From a virus: a stretch of 64,000 bases of DNA. The notes beneath the pieces are model-generated. The model searched no databases. It was not told the origin of the DNA and was given only the letters and a program-made list of their open reading frames with translations. The position numbers and the translations under genes were made by a program. Location: positions 28,711 through 92,710 of IMG/VR virus record IMGVR_UViG_3300026197_000002. One strand, 5' to 3'. Below are positions 54,317 to 63,478 of the stretch, one piece after another; positions within the stretch are counted from its first letter, which is position 1, and every line of letters begins with the position of its first letter.

Positions 54317-54585
54317 TATTTCTTCTTTTTATAAACTCTCTTTTCTTGTGAATTAAGATGCTTATGCAACCTATTCTTATTAATCTTAAATCTACCTAAC
54401 CCATGTAATAATACATCTTTATCATTATTAGTACGTAAGTGCATCTCTAAATAATCAGATATAATATTAAATACTAATCTAACATCCTTAACCGATACCC
54501 CTAAGTCATCATTCAACTCTTTACCTAATTCAGCAAAAGTTATATCTTCTGCAACTTCTTCTATAATATTCTTATTCACTCTCAT
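54316..54585 (-). CDS. IHF/HU-family DNA-bending protein
   Basis: An 89-residue basic protein with the HU/IHF pattern: helices (VKDVRLVFNIISDYLEMHL, about 32-50), then strands leading to the conserved turn GLGRFKI (62-68, in place of GFGTF), and a Lys-rich end. The DNA-binding arm is short compared with host HU. crAss-like phages commonly carry IHF-like genes near the terminase. It overlaps the antirepressor/nuclease gene by 14 nt. It probably bends DNA during packaging or replication. Confidence 0.78.
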   Translation of the reverse strand: MRVNKNIIEEVAEDITFAELGKELNDDLGVSVKDVRLVFNIISDYLEMHLRTNNDKDVLLHGLGRFKINKNRLHKHLNSQEKRVYKKKK

Positions 54586-56188
54586 AACAATTTATTAATA
54601 TTTTACTGTAATCATCACAATCATATCTAAAATATTCATCCTCTTTAAGATGAATAACTATTAACTCATCTATCTCAAATATTGTAGCATCTTCTAGTAA
54701 TACCTTATATGTTCCTAGTTGTAACTGATATTTATTAAAAGCATTTGCCACCAATGTATCAAAAGGTTTAAGTAAATACTCTGAATAATTTTTAAATAAA
54801 TTAGCATTAGTTTTCCAATCACCTAATGACAATTTACCCGTATGCTTGGATACCATAGGTAAATCTATTGTACCTGCTAAATTATAGTTCTCACTATAAA
54901 CTCTTAACTCTGGTACAATATACCAATAATCCTTACTATAATCTATTAAAAACTTTAAACCATATAATGCTTTATTTTTACAAACTTCTACATTAGATAC
55001 TGATAACTCATCAGCTTTACTAACTACTGCACTATACAACTTATTTCTTAAAGTATCAACTTTATCATTAAAAGCATAATCTATGTCAATTTTATAACAA
55101 CTATACATATACTTAACAACTTCTTCTAAAGCATAATGCACAACAGTACCTTCATTAGCAGCCCTATCTCTATTATTATCCCACTTCTCAATAATCTGCT
55201 CTTTTGTAAAACCTTTATAATTTTTAGTACCAACACATCTACCCGCTATCATATCCCAATCCTTATACTTTTCATAACCTTTATTAAAGGTAGTAACACT
55301 AACTCTTTGGTTATTTTCAACAGTATAAGTATGAGTATCTTCTACAAACTTTAACCTACTAAAAGATTTATCTAATTCCCCTTGAATATCAAATATATTC
55401 CAAGAACTACGTTCAATAGTATTATTACCATACTCCTTTAAAATTAAAGAATATAACCAATTAATACCCTTAGATGTCATCCTTACAACTTTACCAACTT
55501 TATATTCAAAATATCCAGACTCTATATACTTTCTATAAGGTATGTTATTTTTATTTAATATCTTCTTATCCCTTAAAAAAGAATATAAGTTATTCCTACC
55601 CACATTACGCTGCCTCATTATATTAGCAACTTCTGATATATTATATAAATTAGTATCACTATCTATACAAGTATCAAAAAATTCAACCTTAGGTTTAACA
55701 CTTTCTAACATATCCTGCGTATCAGCTAACATCCTTAAAGCCTCTGAAAAACTAGAAGGTAACTTATTAATCATCTCATTACGTACTTTTACAAGAGTTT
55801 TCTCACAATTCAATAGGTAATCCCGGTATCTACTAGCATTATCTGTTTTAGCCATCATAGCTAAATGCTGCCCTGTACGTAAAGTAATAGCATAGTCCAT
55901 CTTTATATTACCCTTCAACTTTCTACCTGTATTACTATCCTCAATAGGTGTGTAATCTATACCATTATTAAATAACGTATCTTTCTTAGCAGTACCTACT
56001 AAATTACGTCTTACCCACTTAGACCAATTACTAGGATGTAATCCTAAACCATTATACAATTCTCTCAATGATACAACCTTAGAAACTTCACCATTAATCT
56101 CTATGTCTTTAACAGTAAGTAATTCTAACTTATTATCCATATAGTCAGGTATTATATCATCATCTGATATTTTAATATTGCTTGACAT
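54572..56188 (-). CDS. AntA/KilAC antirepressor fused to PD-(D/E)XK nuclease
   Basis: A 538-residue fusion. Residues about 38-130 match the AntA/AntB antirepressor domain (VVSLRELYNGLGLHPSNWSKW ... YAITLRTGQHLAMMAKT ... SRYRDYLLNCEK). Residues about 180-250 match KilAC (LYNISEVANIMRQ ... GRNNLYSFLRDKKIL ... VRMTSKGINWL). Residues about 280-530 look like a PD-(D/E)XK nuclease: NEGTVVHYALEE with H351, then PEL (E427), GTID (D442), GDWKT (D457, K459) and YQLQ (Q488). The nuclease could act in recombination or DNA processing. Overlap with the flanking genes is 14-17 nt. Confidence 0.82.
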   Translation of the reverse strand: MSSNIKISDDDIIPDYMDNKLELLTVKDIEINGEVSKVVSLRELYNGLGLHPSNWSKWVRRNLVGTAKKDTLFNNGIDYTPIEDSNTGRKLKGNIKMDYAITLRTGQHLAMMAKTDNASRYRDYLLNCEKTLVKVRNEMINKLPSSFSEALRMLADTQDMLESVKPKVEFFDTCIDSDTNLYNISEVANIMRQRNVGRNNLYSFLRDKKILNKNNIPYRKYIESGYFEYKVGKVVRMTSKGINWLYSLILKEYGNNTIERSSWNIFDIQGELDKSFSRLKFVEDTHTYTVENNQRVSVTTFNKGYEKYKDWDMIAGRCVGTKNYKGFTKEQIIEKWDNNRDRAANEGTVVHYALEEVVKYMYSCYKIDIDYAFNDKVDTLRNKLYSAVVSKADELSVSNVEVCKNKALYGLKFLIDYSKDYWYIVPELRVYSENYNLAGTIDLPMVSKHTGKLSLGDWKTNANLFKNYSEYLLKPFDTLVANAFNKYQLQLGTYKVLLEDATIFEIDELIVIHLKEDEYFRYDCDDYSKILINCYESE

Positions 56189-57600: not shown

Positions 57601-57617
57601 TCTACAAAGATGGAAGA

Positions 57618-57654
57618 AAAACCTTCCAGGTTTTCTCTTTGAAGAACACCTCAT
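57618..57654 (+). promoter_or_regulatory. hairpin element copy 1
   Basis: Stem AAAACCT-TCC-AGGTTTT (7 bp, 3-nt loop, 57618-57634), then GAAGAACACCTCAT (57641-57654). AAGAACACC starts 16 nt after the loop centre, as in the other copies. The next ATG is at 57701. Confidence 0.75.
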
Positions 57655-57700
57655 ACATAGTTTGATTGAATTTTAAATTAATTATTAAATACATAGAACT

Positions 57701-57889
57701 ATGAAGAATATACAAACACTTGAAGACGCTAAGAAAATATGCAAATCTTATAATACTGTAGACGGCATCAAAGATGAAAAGATTTTGCTAAATTTGGAGA
57801 AGCAATGGAATGCAAACCCTAAAAGATTCGTAAGATTCCCTTACGGGACTTACGACTTAAAGGACAAGTACTTGCTTATATGGAAATAA
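57701..57889 (+). CDS. hypothetical small protein, 62 aa
   Basis: First gene of the rightward block, 62 residues, charged and soluble, with no recognised domain (MKNIQTLEDAKKICKSY...). It starts about 46 nt after hairpin element copy 1, with the AT-rich leader TTTTAAATTAATTATTAAA and no Shine-Dalgarno sequence. The coding DNA contains nested CGTAAG/CTTACG repeats (about 57828-57854). A hairpin (57904-57925) follows the stop, so it is probably monocistronic. Confidence 0.65.
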   Translation: MKNIQTLEDAKKICKSYNTVDGIKDEKILLNLEKQWNANPKRFVRFPYGTYDLKDKYLLIWK

Positions 57890-57925: not shown

Positions 57926-57937
57926 GTATATTTAAAG

Positions 57938-57975
57938 AACAACCTTACAGGTTGTTTCTGTTAAGAACACCTCAT
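57938..57975 (+). promoter_or_regulatory. hairpin element copy 2
   Basis: Stem AACAACCT-TAC-AGGTTGTT (8 bp, 3-nt loop with central A, 57938-57956), then TTAAGAACACCTCAT (57961-57975). The stem differs in sequence from copies 1 and 3 but keeps pairing, so it co-varies. It precedes the gene at 58028. Confidence 0.78.
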
Positions 57976-58027
57976 TTATATATTGAGATAAGGTATTCTT
58001 ATCTCTCAACTTTAAAATTATATAGTT

Positions 58028-58246
58028 ATGTATTACATACTTAGCACCTGTCACATTACAGGTAAAATTGAAAGAGTAAGATACTTTGACAGTATTAATG
58101 AAGCTGTAGACGCTCTTACAAAGATGAACGTAATGGAACATCAAAGTTTTTCTATTCACACTGACCAAGCTGCTATTTTGTATAGCAGCTTGGAAAAAAA
58201 ACTCTGTCAATTTCCAGCTGAAAAGCTGGTAAAGCACGGGGATTAA
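58028..58246 (+). CDS. hypothetical small protein, 72 aa
   Basis: Unrecognised 72-residue protein (MYYILSTCHITGKIERVRYF...). The pattern YFDSINEAVDALTKMN suggests a small alpha/beta fold of the kind seen in many phage host-takeover proteins. The leader CTTTAAAATTATATAGTTATG lacks a Shine-Dalgarno sequence. The coding DNA contains a perfect 12-bp hairpin (58165-58176 with 58182-58193), and a terminator follows the stop. The open frame on the opposite strand here is a mirror effect of such repeats and is not called. Confidence 0.65.
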   Translation: MYYILSTCHITGKIERVRYFDSINEAVDALTKMNVMEHQSFSIHTDQAAILYSSLEKKLCQFPAEKLVKHGD

Positions 58247-58253
58247 TTGCAAA

Positions 58254-58289
58254 GCTCTTCTAGCATCTAGTAGAAGGGCTTTTTTTTTT
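58254..58289 (+). terminator. intrinsic terminator
   Basis: 9-bp stem (58254-58262 with 58271-58279, one G-T pair), 8-nt loop, then ten T (58280-58289). Strong terminator between the 72- and 78-residue genes. Because no hairpin element lies between them, the second gene depends on read-through or another start. Confidence 0.85.
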
Positions 58290-58320
58290 GTTTTTTCAAC
58301 TTTTAAAATTAAATATCGTT

Positions 58321-58557
58321 ATGAAGATTATAAGTAGACGTGGTGTAACAGCCACAATAAGTAACGGGTTCGTTAGACCTAAAAAAGATATAAAGACCTC
58401 CAATGGATTGGTATTTAGCGGTAGTAAGTACTTATTACTTACTACCAACCAAGGTAGTTACGTCAAGTTTTGCAGTGCTTTCAACTTCCTTGATGCAGTA
58501 AAGCACTACTGTATTAATGAGCGTGTTAATTTACAGGATTGGTATAAAGTCCTGTAA
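58321..58557 (+). CDS. hypothetical small protein, 78 aa
   Basis: I start at the ATG at 58321, after the same CTTTTAAAATTA leader seen at the other genes here; an upstream in-frame ATG at 58288 lies within the terminator tail. The protein is basic and unrecognised (MKIISRRGVTATISNGFV...). The coding DNA holds an 11-bp perfect hairpin (58420-58430 with 58436-58446) and an 8-bp one at its 3' end (58531-58557) that includes the stop codon. Confidence 0.65.
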   Translation: MKIISRRGVTATISNGFVRPKKDIKTSNGLVFSGSKYLLLTTNQGSYVKFCSAFNFLDAVKHYCINERVNLQDWYKVL

Positions 58558-58568
58558 GTTATAAGATT

Positions 58569-58598
58569 CTCCTAGTAGATACTAGGAGGGTCTTTTTT
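58569..58598 (+). terminator. intrinsic terminator
   Basis: Perfect 8-bp stem CTCCTAGT-AGAT-ACTAGGAG (58569-58588), then GGTCTTTTTT. Hairpin element copy 3 starts 6 nt later. Confidence 0.87.
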
Positions 58599-58603
58599 AC
58601 AAT

Positions 58604-58640
58604 TAACCCTTACAGGGTTATTCTATGAGGAACACCTCAT
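58604..58640 (+). promoter_or_regulatory. hairpin element copy 3
   Basis: Stem TAACCCT-TAC-AGGGTTA (7 bp, 3-nt loop, 58604-58620), then ATGAGGAACACCTCAT (58625-58640). In this copy the conserved box is itself a 6-bp inverted repeat around AACA. Same 16-nt spacing as the others. Confidence 0.78.
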
Positions 58641-58718
58641 TTAGTTGTGGAGTTTAATTATTTAAAAAACAGGGTTGTAAAGGCAATCCTTGTGCATTAT
58701 GCACTAAATGTTAATAAT

Positions 58719-59057
58719 ATGAAAATGTTAGAAGAAGGAGAAAGCAGAATTTTAACAGGACTTTGCATAGAAAAAAGTCTTATGGAAAAAAAAGATTCTA
58801 ACGGCAACAATCGCTACGCCGTTAGTATAGAAAACCACCCACGAACATTGTATGTTGGAGAATGGTGTAAGTTTGAAACAGGGGATACCTTACAAGTTAC
58901 CCTAACAGGAAAAAAGTTTAATGATAAAATCTACGAGAACGTAGGAAAAATCATTAATACAACCGCTGCCTACAACAAAGAATTAGTAAGAAAAGAAACT
59001 GCCATTCTTAACGCTAAAAAGAACTTCCAAGAGGAAACAGGTATTCAATTATTTTAA
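58719..59057 (+). CDS. hypothetical protein, 112 aa, possible small beta-barrel
   Basis: I prefer the ATG at 58719 over the GTG at 58647, because the latter lies 7 nt after the hairpin element and is not an ATG. The 112-residue protein has alternating strands (RTLYVGEWCKFETGD; LQVTLTGKKFNDKIYENVGKI) and a helical tail ending GIQLF; an OB-like barrel is possible but unproven. The coding DNA has an 8-bp hairpin (58798-58825) and a 16-bp hairpin over its stop codon (59034-59070). A terminator follows. Confidence 0.65.
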   Translation: MKMLEEGESRILTGLCIEKSLMEKKDSNGNNRYAVSIENHPRTLYVGEWCKFETGDTLQVTLTGKKFNDKIYENVGKIINTTAAYNKELVRKETAILNAKKNFQEETGIQLF

Positions 59058-59072
59058 TTGTACCTGTTTCAC

Positions 59073-59106
59073 AATACATACCCTAGAAATAGGGTATGTA
59101 TTTTTA
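59073..59106 (+). terminator. intrinsic terminator with GAAA loop
   Basis: Perfect 13-bp stem (59073-59085 with 59090-59102) capped by a GAAA tetraloop and followed by TTTTTA. Hairpin element copy 4 begins 6-10 nt later. Confidence 0.87.
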
Positions 59107-59111
59107 AAACC

Positions 59112-59144
59112 ACCCTTACAGGGTTATACTGTTAAGAACACCTC
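59112..59144 (+). promoter_or_regulatory. hairpin element copy 4
   Basis: Stem ACCCT-TAC-AGGGT (5 bp, 3-nt loop, 59112-59124), then GTTAAGAACACCTC (59131-59144). It lies in front of the long structured leader of the 110-residue gene at 59614. Confidence 0.72.
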
Positions 59145-59149
59145 TTTTA

Positions 59150-59613
59150 TTTATTGATGTGGTGTTATAGTATAGTACTATAACATACAATCAACGTGCA
59201 AATCTTCAAGTATGTATAGGACTTAGGTTTGTTAGAATAATGTTCCCAACATTATGTAGTTGATTTTGGTGGATGTTTTTTGGTTATGTGTAAGTAGTAG
59301 AAACTACCTTATCACACCCCTATAAACACTCCACACATCACTATAATATCCTACGATAACCTCGTAGTATCTAGTTTTACCTGCAAGTATGCGTAGAACT
59401 TAGGTTAGATATTATACATTATTGGTCTATATATATCCAAAATATATACACCATATAAATACCTACTGCCAACCTATAAAGCAGTTTAACGGTATTTAAC
59501 CCAAAGAACGTAAGAGTTCACTACATATAATATAATGTAGAAGTTACTATGAAAGACCATAGGGTAAGTAATTAAACCTGCCCAATATTATTATTAACAT
59601 TAAAACAGATATT
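59150..59613 (+). ncRNA. long structured leader or ncRNA with internal repeats
   Basis: A 470-nt gene-free stretch rich in hairpins: perfect 9-bp stem 59164-59172/59176-59184; perfect 8-bp stem 59237-59244/59248-59255; CTACG/CGTAG near 59351-59366; and a multi-arm structure near 59496-59566 with GAAC-GTAAGA-GTTC, CTACAT...ATGTAG and CTATG...CATAG closed by ACCC/GGGT. A 23-nt direct repeat (59207-59229 and 59384-59406, 20 of 23 identical) lies inside. It could be a 5' leader, a trans-acting RNA or both. Confidence 0.5.
59207..59406 (+). repeat. 23-nt direct repeat pair
   Basis: CAAGTATGTATAGGACTTAG plus GTT at 59207-59229 recurs at 59384-59406 with 3 changes. The two copies are 177 nt apart within the structured leader, suggesting a duplicated RNA or protein-binding module. 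Confidence 0.7.
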
Positions 59614-59946
59614 ATGAAGGATTTAGAAAAATTAGAAAATGCTATTGCAGTGGCTAAATTAAAACTGCAAGAAGAAACTTCCAGATTAAAGAAAGATATA
59701 CAATATGCAGAAAATGCACGTGTATCTTACCTACATGAAAACTTTTTCTTATTTGAAAAAGTTTTCGCTGCTGAAAAAGCAGAATTTTTCGTAAAAAATC
59801 TTCCTGCTTGGGAGAAAGAACTAATATCAGAAAATATTGTTTCTGATATTAGTTCTGATGTAAACATCAGAATTTGGTGTAAAAAAATAAAGCAAGTTTC
59901 AGAACTACAAGAACTTTCGTATAATGTTCTGAAACTAAAAGTTTAA
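59614..59946 (+). CDS. hypothetical coiled-coil protein, 110 aa
   Basis: Unrecognised 110-residue protein. Residues 1-35 form a heptad-like helix (MKDLEKLENAIAVAKLKLQ). It begins behind a 470-nt structured leader. Its coding sequence is the clearest example of hairpin packing in the window: perfect stems of 12 bp (59737-59766), 14 bp (59820-59853), 8 bp (59853-59872) and 11 bp (59895-59936), and an 18-nt palindrome over the stop codon (59936-59953). The amino-acid sequence still looks protein-like. Confidence 0.62.
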   Translation: MKDLEKLENAIAVAKLKLQEETSRLKKDIQYAENARVSYLHENFFLFEKVFAAEKAEFFVKNLPAWEKELISENIVSDISSDVNIRIWCKKIKQVSELQELSYNVLKLKV

Positions 59947-60049
59947 ACTTTTAATAGCTATCCACATATAGCTTTAAGGAAATATAACTCTCTTGTAGAA
60001 GTGAGGTATATAAACCAAATGTGGAGTGTAATTCTCTTATGAATTAAAA

Positions 60050-60139
60050 GACAGTACTGAACCCAAGTAATAAGCCTGGCAGAGGAATTGGTGATAGGTG
60101 TAAAAAACCTTATGGTAGGTTCAAATCCTACTACTGTCG
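60050..60139 (+). ncRNA. tRNA-like element without a normal D arm
   Basis: Seven-bp acceptor stem GACAGTA (60050-60056) / TACTGTC (60132-60138) directly adjoins a T arm GTAGG-TTCAAAT-CCTAC (60115-60131). A 4-6 bp stem with 7-nt loop GTAAAAA (AGGT/ACCT, about 60096-60110) takes the anticodon position, but the region before it is about 38 nt instead of 17, although it contains the tRNA-like D-loop string GGAATTGGT. It is therefore a tRNA-derived or tRNA-mimicking RNA; I do not call it a functional tRNA. It lies in the 250-nt gap before the gene at 60197. Confidence 0.65.
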
Positions 60140-60162
60140 CTAAATTATTATTTAACTTTAAA

Positions 60163-60188
60163 GAGGTACAGTTGAAATACTGTACCTC
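60163..60188 (+). promoter_or_regulatory. hairpin directly before a start codon
   Basis: Perfect 9-bp stem GAGGTACAG (60163-60171) with CTGTACCTC (60180-60188), 8-nt loop, ending 8 nt before the ATG at 60197. It may control initiation by hiding or presenting the start region. Confidence 0.6.
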
Positions 60189-60196
60189 ATATTACT

Positions 60197-60835
60197 ATGA
60201 TAGACAGTAAAAAATATAGTCTAGTTGAGGCAATTTTGATGATTAAAGAATTGCCTATCTTACCTGCAAAAAAAGCAAAAATTGTCCAAAAAGTACTTCT
60301 GGCAGCAGGTGAAGAAGGAAAGCTAATGGATGCCAATTATTTGGCAAACAAGCTCCCAGAATCGGGAGTAAAAGGGTTTTTTAACCCTTCAGCAGTAGAA
60401 GATGTGGGGTGTTTCAACTTCATAAAACACCCTGCTGACAACCGATACCATTTAGCAACAAGTATAAATGGTATCTGGATGATTGAATCACCTGAAGAAG
60501 GAGAGCCATTCAAATATCAGCCTTGTTGGAAAGCTGATAGTGATGAAACTGCACTATATTACCTAATGACGAAGGGCAATCCTTCAAAAAAAGTTGCCCA
60601 AGAAATATGTGATAAGTTCAACTTGCCATTATCTCCTGTATTACAGGATGAAAATGGCTACGATTATTGGACTGTTGCTATCACTACATATAATTTACAG
60701 GTTATTGACCAGTCATCTGGTTATCCTGTAAATGATGCACGTGGTGGTAGCTTCTGCACAAAAGCAGAAGCAGAGGAGTATATGAAAAATACTCCTTTAG
60801 AAATTGGGTTAGATTGGGATTGCCAAATATCTTAA
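60197..60835 (+). CDS. hypothetical protein, 212 aa
   Basis: Unrecognised 212-residue protein. Residues 25-110 contain WxxxP- and GxFNP-type segments (GVKGFFNPSAVEDVGCFNF); the C-terminal part (about 150-205) is strand-rich and has NDARGGSFCTKAEAEEYM, which may be a small repeat-type domain. The coding DNA holds many perfect stems: 7 bp (60372-60389), 8 bp (60407-60432), 10 bp (60444-60475), 9 bp (60693-60733), 8 bp (60750-60771) and 8 bp (60774-60796). It is placed between the tRNA-like element and the long ncRNA candidate. Confidence 0.62.
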   Translation: MIDSKKYSLVEAILMIKELPILPAKKAKIVQKVLLAAGEEGKLMDANYLANKLPESGVKGFFNPSAVEDVGCFNFIKHPADNRYHLATSINGIWMIESPEEGEPFKYQPCWKADSDETALYYLMTKGNPSKKVAQEICDKFNLPLSPVLQDENGYDYWTVAITTYNLQVIDQSSGYPVNDARGGSFCTKAEAEEYMKNTPLEIGLDWDCQIS

Positions 60836-61654
60836 TCTCTAAATCATAGGCATTCGTAAGATGTAAGTCCTATACATTAAAAAAACGTATTAATCTAGTT
60901 TTCTTTTTAAAAGTTTTGTATATTTCAAGCGTTTGTAAGAGTTCGTAAACTTACATACTTTATGGCTTCAAAGCAGGTGTAGTACCCTGTTATTCTTATG
61001 TCAATTAGATTTACCAAGTCTAATTATGGAAAGTAATTCTAAGTACACGAATTACAGACCTTATTGACACGTTTGCTCAATTAAGAGTATAGGAATACCT
61101 AGTAGCACGTGGTGGTGTCTAGGCGTGAGTGCAAATCTCACTGAAGTCTGCTGATATTTCCCAGAAATGGAGAATGTAAGCCCTTAAATGGGATAAGTTT
61201 GAGTTATAAATTCCTTATACTCAAATGAAGGCAGCAAGTTGGATACTTGCGTTTTATATATCTTAATTTTATTCCTGTATAAAAAACAAAGACATAGGGG
61301 TAACAGGTTTAGACCCGTCAAGTAAAAAAAGATATATAATCCTAATTAACATTATAGTTGCAAATATAATTGTTAATATTGTGCGGACACCTTTAATTAG
61401 GTGTAATATCTTACTATGAGGATAGTAAGGGCTCTTACTGTTAGGAGAAATAACAGGAATTAGTATCATCAGGTCAAAATAGACTTACTTCTATAAATAT
61501 ATAATAAGTAGTTTATTGATTACCTGATGATTTCTATTTTACCCTTACCACAAAGGGTTTATCTGCTATGTAGATAGAAAGTATGCCATCAAACAAATGA
61601 TGAAGCGTGGTTAGATAACTTGAATGGACAGTATATACTGTCCATTTTTTTTTT
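60836..61654 (+). ncRNA. large structured candidate ncRNA, about 820 nt
   Basis: No convincing gene for 837 nt. Stems include CCTAG/CTAGG (61098-61123), GTGAG-TGCAAAT-CTCAC with a T-loop-like loop (61125-61141), an 11-bp stem with one bulge (61198-61225), GCAAGT/ACTTGC (61234-61250), ACACCT/AGGTGT (61387-61404), an 8-bp stem with GAGG loop (61410-61429) and a long 10-bp helix (61465-61474 with 61522-61531). The stretch ends at a strong terminator. Size, structure and phage/tRNA neighbourhood recall the large phage RNAs GOLLD and ROOL, but I cannot match either. Boundaries at the 5' end are uncertain. Confidence 0.55.
61625..61654 (+). terminator. strong intrinsic terminator
   Basis: A perfect 20-nt palindrome (61625-61644, stem TGGACAGT/ACTGTCCA) followed by ten T (61645-61654). 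It closes the long structured stretch and precedes the next gene by 18 nt. Confidence 0.92.
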
Positions 61655-61672
61655 AATCAAACTTAAAAAACT

Positions 61673-62128
61673 ATGAATAAAGATATTGAAAAAGCTCTAC
61701 TATGGTGGAGTAATCTTTCTACTAAAGAAAAGTGGAATAAGATTCTAAAAGATTGTGAAAATATTGATGAAACTTTATCTCTTGCTGATATGAGAGAATT
61801 AAACATTCTCTACATGTGGGAAAAAAGTGAAAATATTAAAGCCAATCTTGACTTTAACAAAATAATAGAGTCAGGGGGAAAAATTACATCAATAGTCGGA
61901 ACAGCTGCTGAAGTCTATCCACAACTAATAGGTAAAACAGTAGCTTTTGCTACAACAGTTGGATATTTCAATTTTGATTATGTAATTGAAGTTGAAAGCG
62001 TAGAAGAGAAAGAACATGAGTTTGCATTAAAAGGAACTTTTATCAGTAAAGATAAAAAGTTCAAAACAGAAAATTGTTGTGGGAAAAAAGTAGTATGTTT
62101 ATTCTGGGTAATTGAATACCCTGAATAA
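61673..62128 (+). CDS. hypothetical protein, 151 aa
   Basis: Unrecognised 151-residue protein. The N-terminal third is helical and Trp-rich (KALLWWSNLSTKEKWNKIL); the remainder is strand-rich, ending with CCGKKVVCLFWVIEYPE. It starts 18 nt after a strong terminator, so it relies on read-through or a start site within the short gap. The coding DNA again contains hairpins such as GAGAAT/ATTCTC (61795-61811), TTTTATC/GATAAAA (about 62037-62056) and GGGTA/TACCC near the stop. Confidence 0.62.
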   Translation: MNKDIEKALLWWSNLSTKEKWNKILKDCENIDETLSLADMRELNILYMWEKSENIKANLDFNKIIESGGKITSIVGTAAEVYPQLIGKTVAFATTVGYFNFDYVIEVESVEEKEHEFALKGTFISKDKKFKTENCCGKKVVCLFWVIEYPE

Positions 62129-62280
62129 TTAATTACCTTAAATGATTAATTAAGACCTAGATAAGTCATAAAACTGTCTATTATTTAAACTACCATTCCA
62201 ACTTCACAAGGGTTGGCTACATTAGTAGAGTAGTGAGTGGATAATAAGAATACACATAAATAAAATTAAAATATAAAATT
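62129..62280 (+). other. gene-free leader before the 383-aa gene
   Basis: About 150 nt with AT-rich sequence, a CCAAC/GTTGG hairpin near 62193-62214 and the usual AAATTAAAATATAAAATTATG start context. No hairpin element, host-type promoter or terminator was seen. Confidence 0.4.
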
Positions 62281-63432
62281 ATGAGAAAAATAATCATCAT
62301 CATTATAGCTATCATCTTATCATATATGGTAGCTGCTCCCGTGTTACACGCACAGGTAGAGCAACAAGATTTTGAAACATTTGTATACCAAACTATGAGT
62401 GCTAATGGCACTTATGAAGGTAATACAAAGGTTGTTGTTCAGTATAATGCTGAACATAACACTAGATTTACAACACTGTATGAGATATATGTATCTCAAA
62501 GAAACAACCAGGTAATACTAGGAACACCTAGTGTATCTAAGGTTGTTATAGATAACTGTAATAAAGTTGTGAATAACCAAAAAGCAATTATTGATAGTTT
62601 AACTAAAAACTTCACAAAACTACAAGTAGCTCTTGTAGAATGTGAAGAGTTAAAAACAGTATCTAATGAGGTAGCTCCTCAAATTGATACTGTTGTAACA
62701 ACTATTACATCTAATGAGTGGATAGCTACTACTCATGAAGACGTATTTTTGAGTAAAGATTCTATCCAATGGCTAAGGGTAGAAGATTTATCAACCAATA
62801 TCATTCTTATAAATCTCTCCATTAAGCCAAATGGAGTATATTATGAGAACGGTAACTTCGTACTTACAGCTTCTTTCTGGAAATGGCTATCCAGAAATAA
62901 GAATAAGTATAATAAAGTAAGACCTGCTGATACGTATGTCAGTATGCAAGGTGTAGGGCATTCTACTTACTTGTTTATATTAGGGATAGCTTCCTTAATA
63001 TTGTTGCATTTAAGTAGGTATGAAAGAACTCATCCTAATAATTTTAAGATTTTGCTAACCTTAATATTATTGGGTATGTTTATATCTATACCTGCTGCTA
63101 GCAATGCACAAGATAGTGTGCAAGATGACAAGAGAATCATAGAACACTCTCGGTACACCTATATTCCCCTAGATTACCTAGACGTAGGTGATATAGTAAG
63201 ATTACGAGGTAACAACCTTGATGTTTACGTGAAATATCAAGGTAAAATGCAATGGGTTCACGTACCTACTGCTAAATGGAGTGTTCAATATATGGACTAC
63301 TTAGCTAGTAGTTCATTAGGTGTAAACTGTTACACCATATCTTTGCCACTTCCTATACGTAAGCAAGTATGGGATAGACACTATGCTTCTAATGATGATA
63401 AACCAAAGCTAGGTTTACATCAGATGAAGTAA
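62281..63432 (+). CDS. exported protein with two signal-like segments, 383 aa
   Basis: Residues 1-24 form a signal peptide ending PVLHAQ. A roughly 200-residue exported part follows. Two hydrophobic spans (about 228-245, STYLFILGIASLILLHL, and about 255-272, ILLTLILLGMFISI) come next, and the second ends PAASNAQ, which looks like a second signal-peptidase site, before about 105 more residues. The layout suggests an envelope protein that may be cut in two, or an old fusion of two exported proteins. No enzyme motif was recognised. A terminator follows. Confidence 0.68.
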   Translation: MRKIIIIIIAIILSYMVAAPVLHAQVEQQDFETFVYQTMSANGTYEGNTKVVVQYNAEHNTRFTTLYEIYVSQRNNQVILGTPSVSKVVIDNCNKVVNNQKAIIDSLTKNFTKLQVALVECEELKTVSNEVAPQIDTVVTTITSNEWIATTHEDVFLSKDSIQWLRVEDLSTNIILINLSIKPNGVYYENGNFVLTASFWKWLSRNKNKYNKVRPADTYVSMQGVGHSTYLFILGIASLILLHLSRYERTHPNNFKILLTLILLGMFISIPAASNAQDSVQDDKRIIEHSRYTYIPLDYLDVGDIVRLRGNNLDVYVKYQGKMQWVHVPTAKWSVQYMDYLASSSLGVNCYTISLPLPIRKQVWDRHYASNDDKPKLGLHQMK

Positions 63433-63439
63433 ATTCCAA

Positions 63440-63478
63440 AGAGGTTATGTAAAGCTAGCATAACCTCTATTTTATTTA
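63440..63478 (+). terminator. intrinsic terminator
   Basis: Perfect 10-bp stem AGAGGTTATG (63440-63449) with CATAACCTCT (63459-63468), 9-nt loop, then ATTTTATTT. It ends the unit of the 383-residue gene. Confidence 0.85.

Follow-up and report, generated by a model that had tools for sequence, protein, structure and literature searches.

Why should the first protein-coding genes on the early strand of a double-stranded DNA (dsDNA) phage be packed with perfect inverted repeats? The question is raised by a 64,000-nucleotide stretch of viral DNA, hereafter the window, that comprises bases 28711-92710 of the 92,710-base virus record IMGVR_UViG_3300026197_000002. A sequence-only reading of the window had found long uninterrupted stems inside genes near 58-63 kb, and had proposed that they may protect early mRNA from RNases or from defences such as Cas13, order the genome, or serve a hairpin-using polymerase. 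The coding RNA of these genes is predicted to fold well beyond constrained shuffles. The explanation favoured here, to which a probability of roughly 45% is attached, is that the early mRNAs have been selected for global folding, with protection of the first transcripts as the guessed purpose; it is likely that selection acts on the RNA fold as such.

Minus-strand genes from 3.2 to ~57 kb form the structural set and are called late, while plus-strand genes, which occupy 57.6 kb to the end of the contig and its first 3.1 kb, comprise replication and small genes and are called early; we infer both names from genome layout and from work on cultured Crassvirales. The record is classed as linear, and the end-to-start join of the contig is assumed. 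The 6 kb at the head of the early strand (57.9-64 kb) is referred to as the leading early region. The major capsid protein and terminase of the window match Crassvirales, and the early and late blocks are opposed as in crAss-like phages, features that identify the window virus, at the level of sequence, as a crAss-like DNA phage.

Folding of the leading early genes

All the stems listed by the sequence-only reading are present, with some amendment: the stem given as 14 bp is indeed perfect with a 6-nt loop but is 17 bp long (59817-59856), that at 60444-60475 has 11 bp rather than 10, and that at 59034-59070, placed inside a gene, crosses its gene's stop codon. When perfect stems of at least 7 bp with loops of 3-15 nucleotides are counted, the 4-kb bin at 59291-63290 holds 29, as compared to 4.0 in dinucleotide shuffles, whereas bins of the late block lie mostly at 1-1.5 times the dinucleotide-shuffle expectation, with scattered bins up to ~2-3 times. 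Restricted to coding sequence, the leading early region contains 25 stems, against 6.8 +/- 2.3 in synonymous shuffles and 8.1 +/- 2.5 (maximum 13 in 40) in shuffles that preserve protein, codons and dinucleotides; under synonymous shuffling, the rest of the early strand has 110 where 66.5 +/- 5.5 are expected, and the 110 of the late block compare with 91 +/- 8. Stem density in coding sequence accordingly falls from 6.7 per kb in the leading early region through 4.0 in the remaining early strand to 2.0 in the late block, bearing out both the claimed excess over chance and the claimed scarcity in late genes.

Part of the raw stem list is ordinary, as the intergenic stems at 58251-58282, 58563-58594, 59073-59102 and 61623-61646 are terminator-like, and the coding excess is independent of them. 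An explanation by terminators, AT-rich composition and selective reading can draw on these several intergenic stems, but it is refuted for the coding excess by the count under the most constrained shuffles and by the leading genes that surpass all controls (below), leaving it very improbable.

Folding energies agree with the stem counts. Mean folding z is -3.0 at 59-63 kb as compared to about +0.1 to -0.9 on the sense strand in the late block. Excess stability, measured against shuffles that keep protein, codon usage and dinucleotides, averages 30% in the five longer leading genes, 9.8% across the remainder of the early strand and 4.3% for late genes. By the same method, genes of the RNA phage MS2 reach 23-25%, those of T7 2.9% and those of lambda 3.4%; a level of 28% is reached by seven of 849 control phage genes, whose maximum is 32.3%, and the genes at 59614 and 60197 stand above every one. 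The strongest genes are those at 59614, 60197 and 62281, and the leading region is arranged as follows.

58028..58246, plus strand: early open reading frame (ORF) of 72 amino acids (aa) that contains a 12-bp stem (58165-58193); its small size keeps the shuffle test from reaching significance
58251..58300, plus strand: intrinsic-terminator-like hairpin followed by a T run
58321..58557, plus strand: early ORF, 78 aa, with 11-bp and 8-bp stems
58563..58594, plus strand: terminator-like hairpin of 14 pairs, two of them G.U
58719..59057, plus strand: early ORF, 112 aa from the 58719 start; 23% excess stability
59614..59946, plus strand: early ORF, 110 aa, with 17-bp and 12-bp perfect stems; 38-40% excess stability
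60197..60835, plus strand: early ORF, 212 aa, with seven perfect stems of at least 7 bp; 36% excess stability, z about -8
61673..62128, plus strand: early ORF, 151 aa; ~20% excess stability
62281..63432, plus strand: early ORF, 383 aa, with many short imperfect helices and no long palindromes; 28-30% excess stability
63440..63468, plus strand: 10-bp intergenic stem, 3' of ORF 62281-63432

The gene at 62281-63432 has z of -7 to -9.4 and no perfect stem longer than 8 bp, and thus owes its stability to many short helices. The coding hairpins have no sequence in common, and pairing is lower around start codons. A second cluster of strongly folded early genes, most with z of -3.6 to -6.5, lies within the rest of the early strand (L005:6814-10222), and no Pfam match was found among those of its genes that were scanned.

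Coding RNA folded beyond constrained shuffles thus forms a long continuous stretch, 57.9-63.4 kb, in which the signal is strong in the larger genes and not significant in the shortest. Such structure recalls the genome-scale ordered RNA structure (GORS) of RNA viruses, where kilobases of coding RNA likewise fold beyond constrained shuffles in the sense RNA. The difference is that the folded molecules here would be messages from a single gene block of a dsDNA phage, which has no RNA genome that must be folded or packaged, the capsid and terminase genes being those of a Crassvirales-like DNA phage. A similar comparison holds for MS2, which shows a similar magnitude of excess (23-25%, here 28-40%) and the same ratio of sense to antisense excess by the same method, but whose RNA is a packaged, replicated genome rather than a transcript.

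Pairing signatures and the D1 elements

Does the signal reside in RNA or in DNA? A stem that functions as RNA tolerates G.U pairs, and the same stem on the other DNA strand shows A.C. Among helices of at least nine pairs in the leading region, those containing G.U number 22 against 4.8 +/- 1.6 expected and those containing A.C 9 against 6.2 +/- 2.2; for coding sequence alone, with synonymous shuffles, the figures are 14 against 4.6 +/- 2.2 and 6 against 4.1 +/- 1.9. Single internal (1x1) mismatches are G.U in ten cases and A.C in none. With each strand computed against its own shuffles, sense excess is higher than antisense in the leading genes (42% versus 30%, in four of five genes), as it is in MS2 (32% versus 22%) and in 193 early genes of Suoliviridae, a family of gut crAss-like phages (16.9% versus 12.6%, p 2e-6). 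The coding-stem signal therefore sits in sense RNA rather than DNA, and the RNA-level part of the proposed mRNA role is backed on both counts; because the G.U bias could come in part from strand-biased C-to-T mutation, this evidence is strong but not final.

Since G.U helices are in excess and A.C helices hardly so, DNA cruciforms were rejected as the principal explanation, and genome ordering and a hairpin-using polymerase, both put forward by the sequence-only reading, are disfavoured for the coding stems. Promoter-like geometry is found only in four copies of a 56-nt intergenic element, D1, all within 57.6-59.2 kb.

57610..57665, plus strand: D1 copy 1, a 7-bp stem with a 3-nt loop, then GAACACCTCAT; upstream of ORF 57701-57889
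57931..57986, plus strand: D1 copy 2, an 8-bp stem with loop TAC; upstream of ORF 58028-58246
58596..58651, plus strand: D1 copy 3, upstream of the ORF starting near 58707/58719
59102..59157, plus strand: D1 copy 4, on the 5' side of a structured non-coding stretch, 59158-59613

Three of the copies stand directly 3' of terminator-like hairpins, and three of the seven pairs of the D1 stem have changed on both sides with pairing kept. Its sequence therefore has what marks an N4-type element, namely a repeated short stem with a 3-nt loop, placed before early units and showing compensatory changes among its four copies, and D1 is plausibly a promoter or leader. It is separate from the coding hairpins, and the likeness to N4 hairpin promoters is limited to D1, which differs from them in having four copies, a larger conserved tail (GAACACCTCAT) and a role in initiation that is putative. 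The polymerase of Crassvirales is, moreover, of a different family from that of N4 (PMC7886860). A search of IMG/VR with the D1 pattern returned only six chance matches, in unrelated contigs.

A function at the level of DNA, whether as cruciforms, in genome ordering, or as single-stranded hairpins read by a virion polymerase as in N4, would fit the short loops, 7-8 bp stems and compensated pairs of D1, its position after terminators and before transcription units, and the presence of a virion polymerase in Crassvirales. It is nonetheless improbable for the coding stems, as D1 is limited to its few copies at one end of the early strand, no sequence is common to the coding hairpins, the surplus of A.C mirror helices is slight, and the early genes of N4 itself are not specially structured (9.1% excess stability, no different from the 9.7% of its middle genes).

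Relatives and structured non-coding RNAs

The window terminase has at most 35% identity to any found, other than that of a 28-kb contig, L013 (IMGVR_UViG_3300007537_000012), whose terminase is 100% identical and whose sequence does not reach the early region; by this identity, L013 would come from the window virus or from one very close to it. The nearest relatives of the PolA-type DNA polymerase are in Suoliviridae, and in a terminase tree the window phage forms a long lone branch outside that family, with its position unsure. Thus two separate lineages may share the trait of folded early genes. Adjoining the divergence of late and early genes, a 538-aa protein (54572-56188, minus strand) matches both the anti-repressor Ant and the exonuclease PHROG families.

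Judged by folding energy, early genes are more structured than late genes in each of the six Suoliviridae genomes analysed (p 0.04 to 0.0002) as well as in the window phage (p 0.009), so that the early-versus-late specificity first noticed in the window extends to six relatives. Coding structure is weaker in these six gut phages, with excess stability of 13-15% in early and 2-8% in late genes, and it includes conserved replication genes (the polymerase gene of cr4_1, z -4.7; the exonuclease gene of cr55_1, z -6.3). No such difference in folding energy was seen in ProJPt-Bp1, cr127_1, phi14:2, p-crAssphage or FpV4. Stem counts give a broadly parallel distribution: the early-strand coding excess is 1.45-2.0 times in cr55_1, cr50_1, cr1_1, cr4_1, cr6_1, cr52_1 and cr10_1, 2.3 times in ProJPt-Bp1 (few genes), weak in cr127_1 (1.3 times) and absent from phi14:2, p-crAssphage and FpV4, and the late strand of cr6_1 is as stem-enriched as its early strand. 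Environmental crAss-like contigs (L032-L111) show a weak pooled early excess (152 stems against 117 +/- 10) with a wide spread, and no close relative was found among them.

Between close orthologues within Suoliviridae subfamilies, the level of structure per gene is correlated (rho 0.40-0.57), and one-sided changes in the stems of these phages show no preference for G.U. An apparent two- to three-fold excess of compensation in relatives came from a cruder analysis that mixed in intergenic DNA, and was superseded by a position-wise test, in which individual stems are not kept (below). Conserved level with unconserved stems fits selection on overall folding, and also fits a mutational origin, in which template switching during replication makes inverted repeats that survive only in fast-evolving early genes and folding is a by-product. 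Perfect arms, short loops, the turnover of stems between relatives and the greater constraint on late genes would all be expected of such a process. It is harder to reconcile with the gene at 62281-63432, which is folded without long palindromes, or with folding of the conserved Suoliviridae replication genes, and a symmetric process should give neither G.U over A.C nor sense over antisense, although strand-biased C-to-T mutation could partly mimic these; a mutational origin is considered unlikely. In GORS, too, individual pairings are not known to be conserved between relatives, a likeness to the folded early genes described here.

Structure in the leading region also extends to its non-coding parts.

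59058..59613, plus strand: structured non-coding stretch, z -5.9, with a long closing helix and a duplicated motif at 59204 and 59381
60050..60142, plus strand: tRNA-like acceptor stem and T-arm without a recognisable cloverleaf
60836..61672, plus strand: structured non-coding stretch of 837 nt, z -6.7 to -7.4, with the terminator-like hairpin 61623-61646 at its end

Within 59158-59613, the 5' arm of the closing helix overlaps D1 copy 4, and the duplicated motif, CAAGTATG..TAG.ACTTAGG, has no match in any IMG/VR contig. The 837-nt stretch is, from its predicted folding, a candidate large structured non-coding RNA, and has no Rfam match. The tRNA-like feature consists of an acceptor stem, GACAGTA/TACTGTC, and a T-arm, GTAGG-TTCAAAT-CCTAC; its identification as a tRNA or transfer-messenger RNA (tmRNA) was rejected, as ARAGORN, with or without introns, and Rfam were both silent.

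In gut Suoliviridae whose early genes are folded, the early strand is also the site of hatchet ribozymes, RAGATH RNAs, permuted tmRNAs and group I introns. Each of the six Suoliviridae with an early folding bias has hatchet ribozymes or RAGATH RNAs in its early block, and neither was matched in the scanned stretches of five crAss-like or related genomes that lack the bias. This link between folding and ribozymes is a correlation across a dozen genomes, uncorrected for descent. The early blocks of gut Suoliviridae thus resemble that of the window phage in having more coding structure early than late and RNA-rich intergenic spaces, but differ in the weaker coding structure and in their hatchet and RAGATH RNAs, whose Rfam models match nothing in the window or elsewhere on the contig, even at relaxed thresholds; a relaxed Rfam scan of the window gave chance matches only.

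Up to three hatchet ribozymes occur per gut Suoliviridae genome (L026:18791-18918, L015:29283-29382, L028:30891-33695, L030:32982-33107, L029:16453-16571, L031:28907-29033 and L027:17547-17646), with RAGATH-7, -9, -20 and -22 and a permuted tmRNA nearby. The Suoliviridae early block also contains a conserved unannotated gap of 2.1-2.5 kb (L015:38374-40850, L026:26405-28918, L031:18887-20962, L028:19882-22028, L030:22203-24311 and L029:26796-28875), which has no long open frame even with TAG or TGA read through. The possibility that this gap is a giant structured RNA was rejected, because on average it is no more folded than shuffles.

What the folding may be for

In cultured Crassvirales, early and middle genes are transcribed by a virion polymerase, and late genes probably depend on the host polymerase (review PMC10136315). 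A motif check gave no confirmation of a virion polymerase gene in the window phage. By its place in the genome and by analogy with other Crassvirales, however, the first transcripts would probably be made by an injected virion RNA polymerase, and would perhaps not be closely trailed by ribosomes. Selection for global folding would act on the coding and non-coding parts of the early mRNAs alike, and most strongly on the first genes of the early strand, with synonymous and tolerated codon choices building many local hairpins while start codons stay open. Transcripts folded in this way may be hard for host RNases and RNA-directed defences to attack. Protection is the leading guess because early RNA is the first to be seen by a defence and because a guide-directed nuclease cleaves structured RNA poorly (PMC5796797), but as a purpose it is a guess.

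Several observations weigh against selection for protective folding. Beyond the leading region, the early strand of the window phage has equal sense and antisense excess (13.0% each), so that the sense-RNA signature of GORS seen in the leading genes and in Suoliviridae does not extend to it; the gene at 61673-62128 is slightly more stable antisense, and the contrast in the leading region comes from five genes only. No homologues of the early genes at 58707, 60197 and 62281 were detected in IMG/VR, phage records or prokaryote genomes. In gut Suoliviridae, pairs changed on both sides still pair in 42% of cases as compared to 37% in a mock comparison (p 0.054). Finally, phi14:2, N4 and p-crAssphage have a virion polymerase yet lack such structure, which shows that the polymerase is not sufficient, and it was rejected as a sufficient cause.

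Effects on translation and elongation are close rivals to protection. Hairpins may hold back ribosomes, dampen the synthesis of early proteins, keep Rho from loading on RNA that is poorly translated, or guard against backtracking and R-loops, and such tuning would be consistent with sense-RNA structure that leaves start codons open and with the terminator-like hairpins interspersed among early units. It predicts no particular sequence feature, however, and is not separable here from protection; as the explanation of the folding it is considered somewhat unlikely. More doubtful than selection on the early mRNAs of this one phage is the broader proposal that dsDNA phages of this clade share an RNA-centred early regime, in which mRNAs folded to the level of single-stranded RNA viruses, together with ribozymes and other structured RNAs, would form a passive shield against RNases and RNA-directed immunity.

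Genome-scale coding RNA structure counts as an RNA-virus trait and is not expected of DNA phages. A search of the open-licence literature found no report of comparable coding RNA structure in a dsDNA phage, and to our knowledge none describes structure this strong. What is new, then, is not GORS-like coding structure, which is known from RNA viruses, but its predicted occurrence in the first messages of a tailed phage with a dsDNA genome. A dsDNA-phage case, with a milder form in a common family of gut phages, makes the purpose of such folding testable free of the needs of RNA replication and packaging, and suggests a counter-defence at the level of sequence that gene-based surveys would miss.

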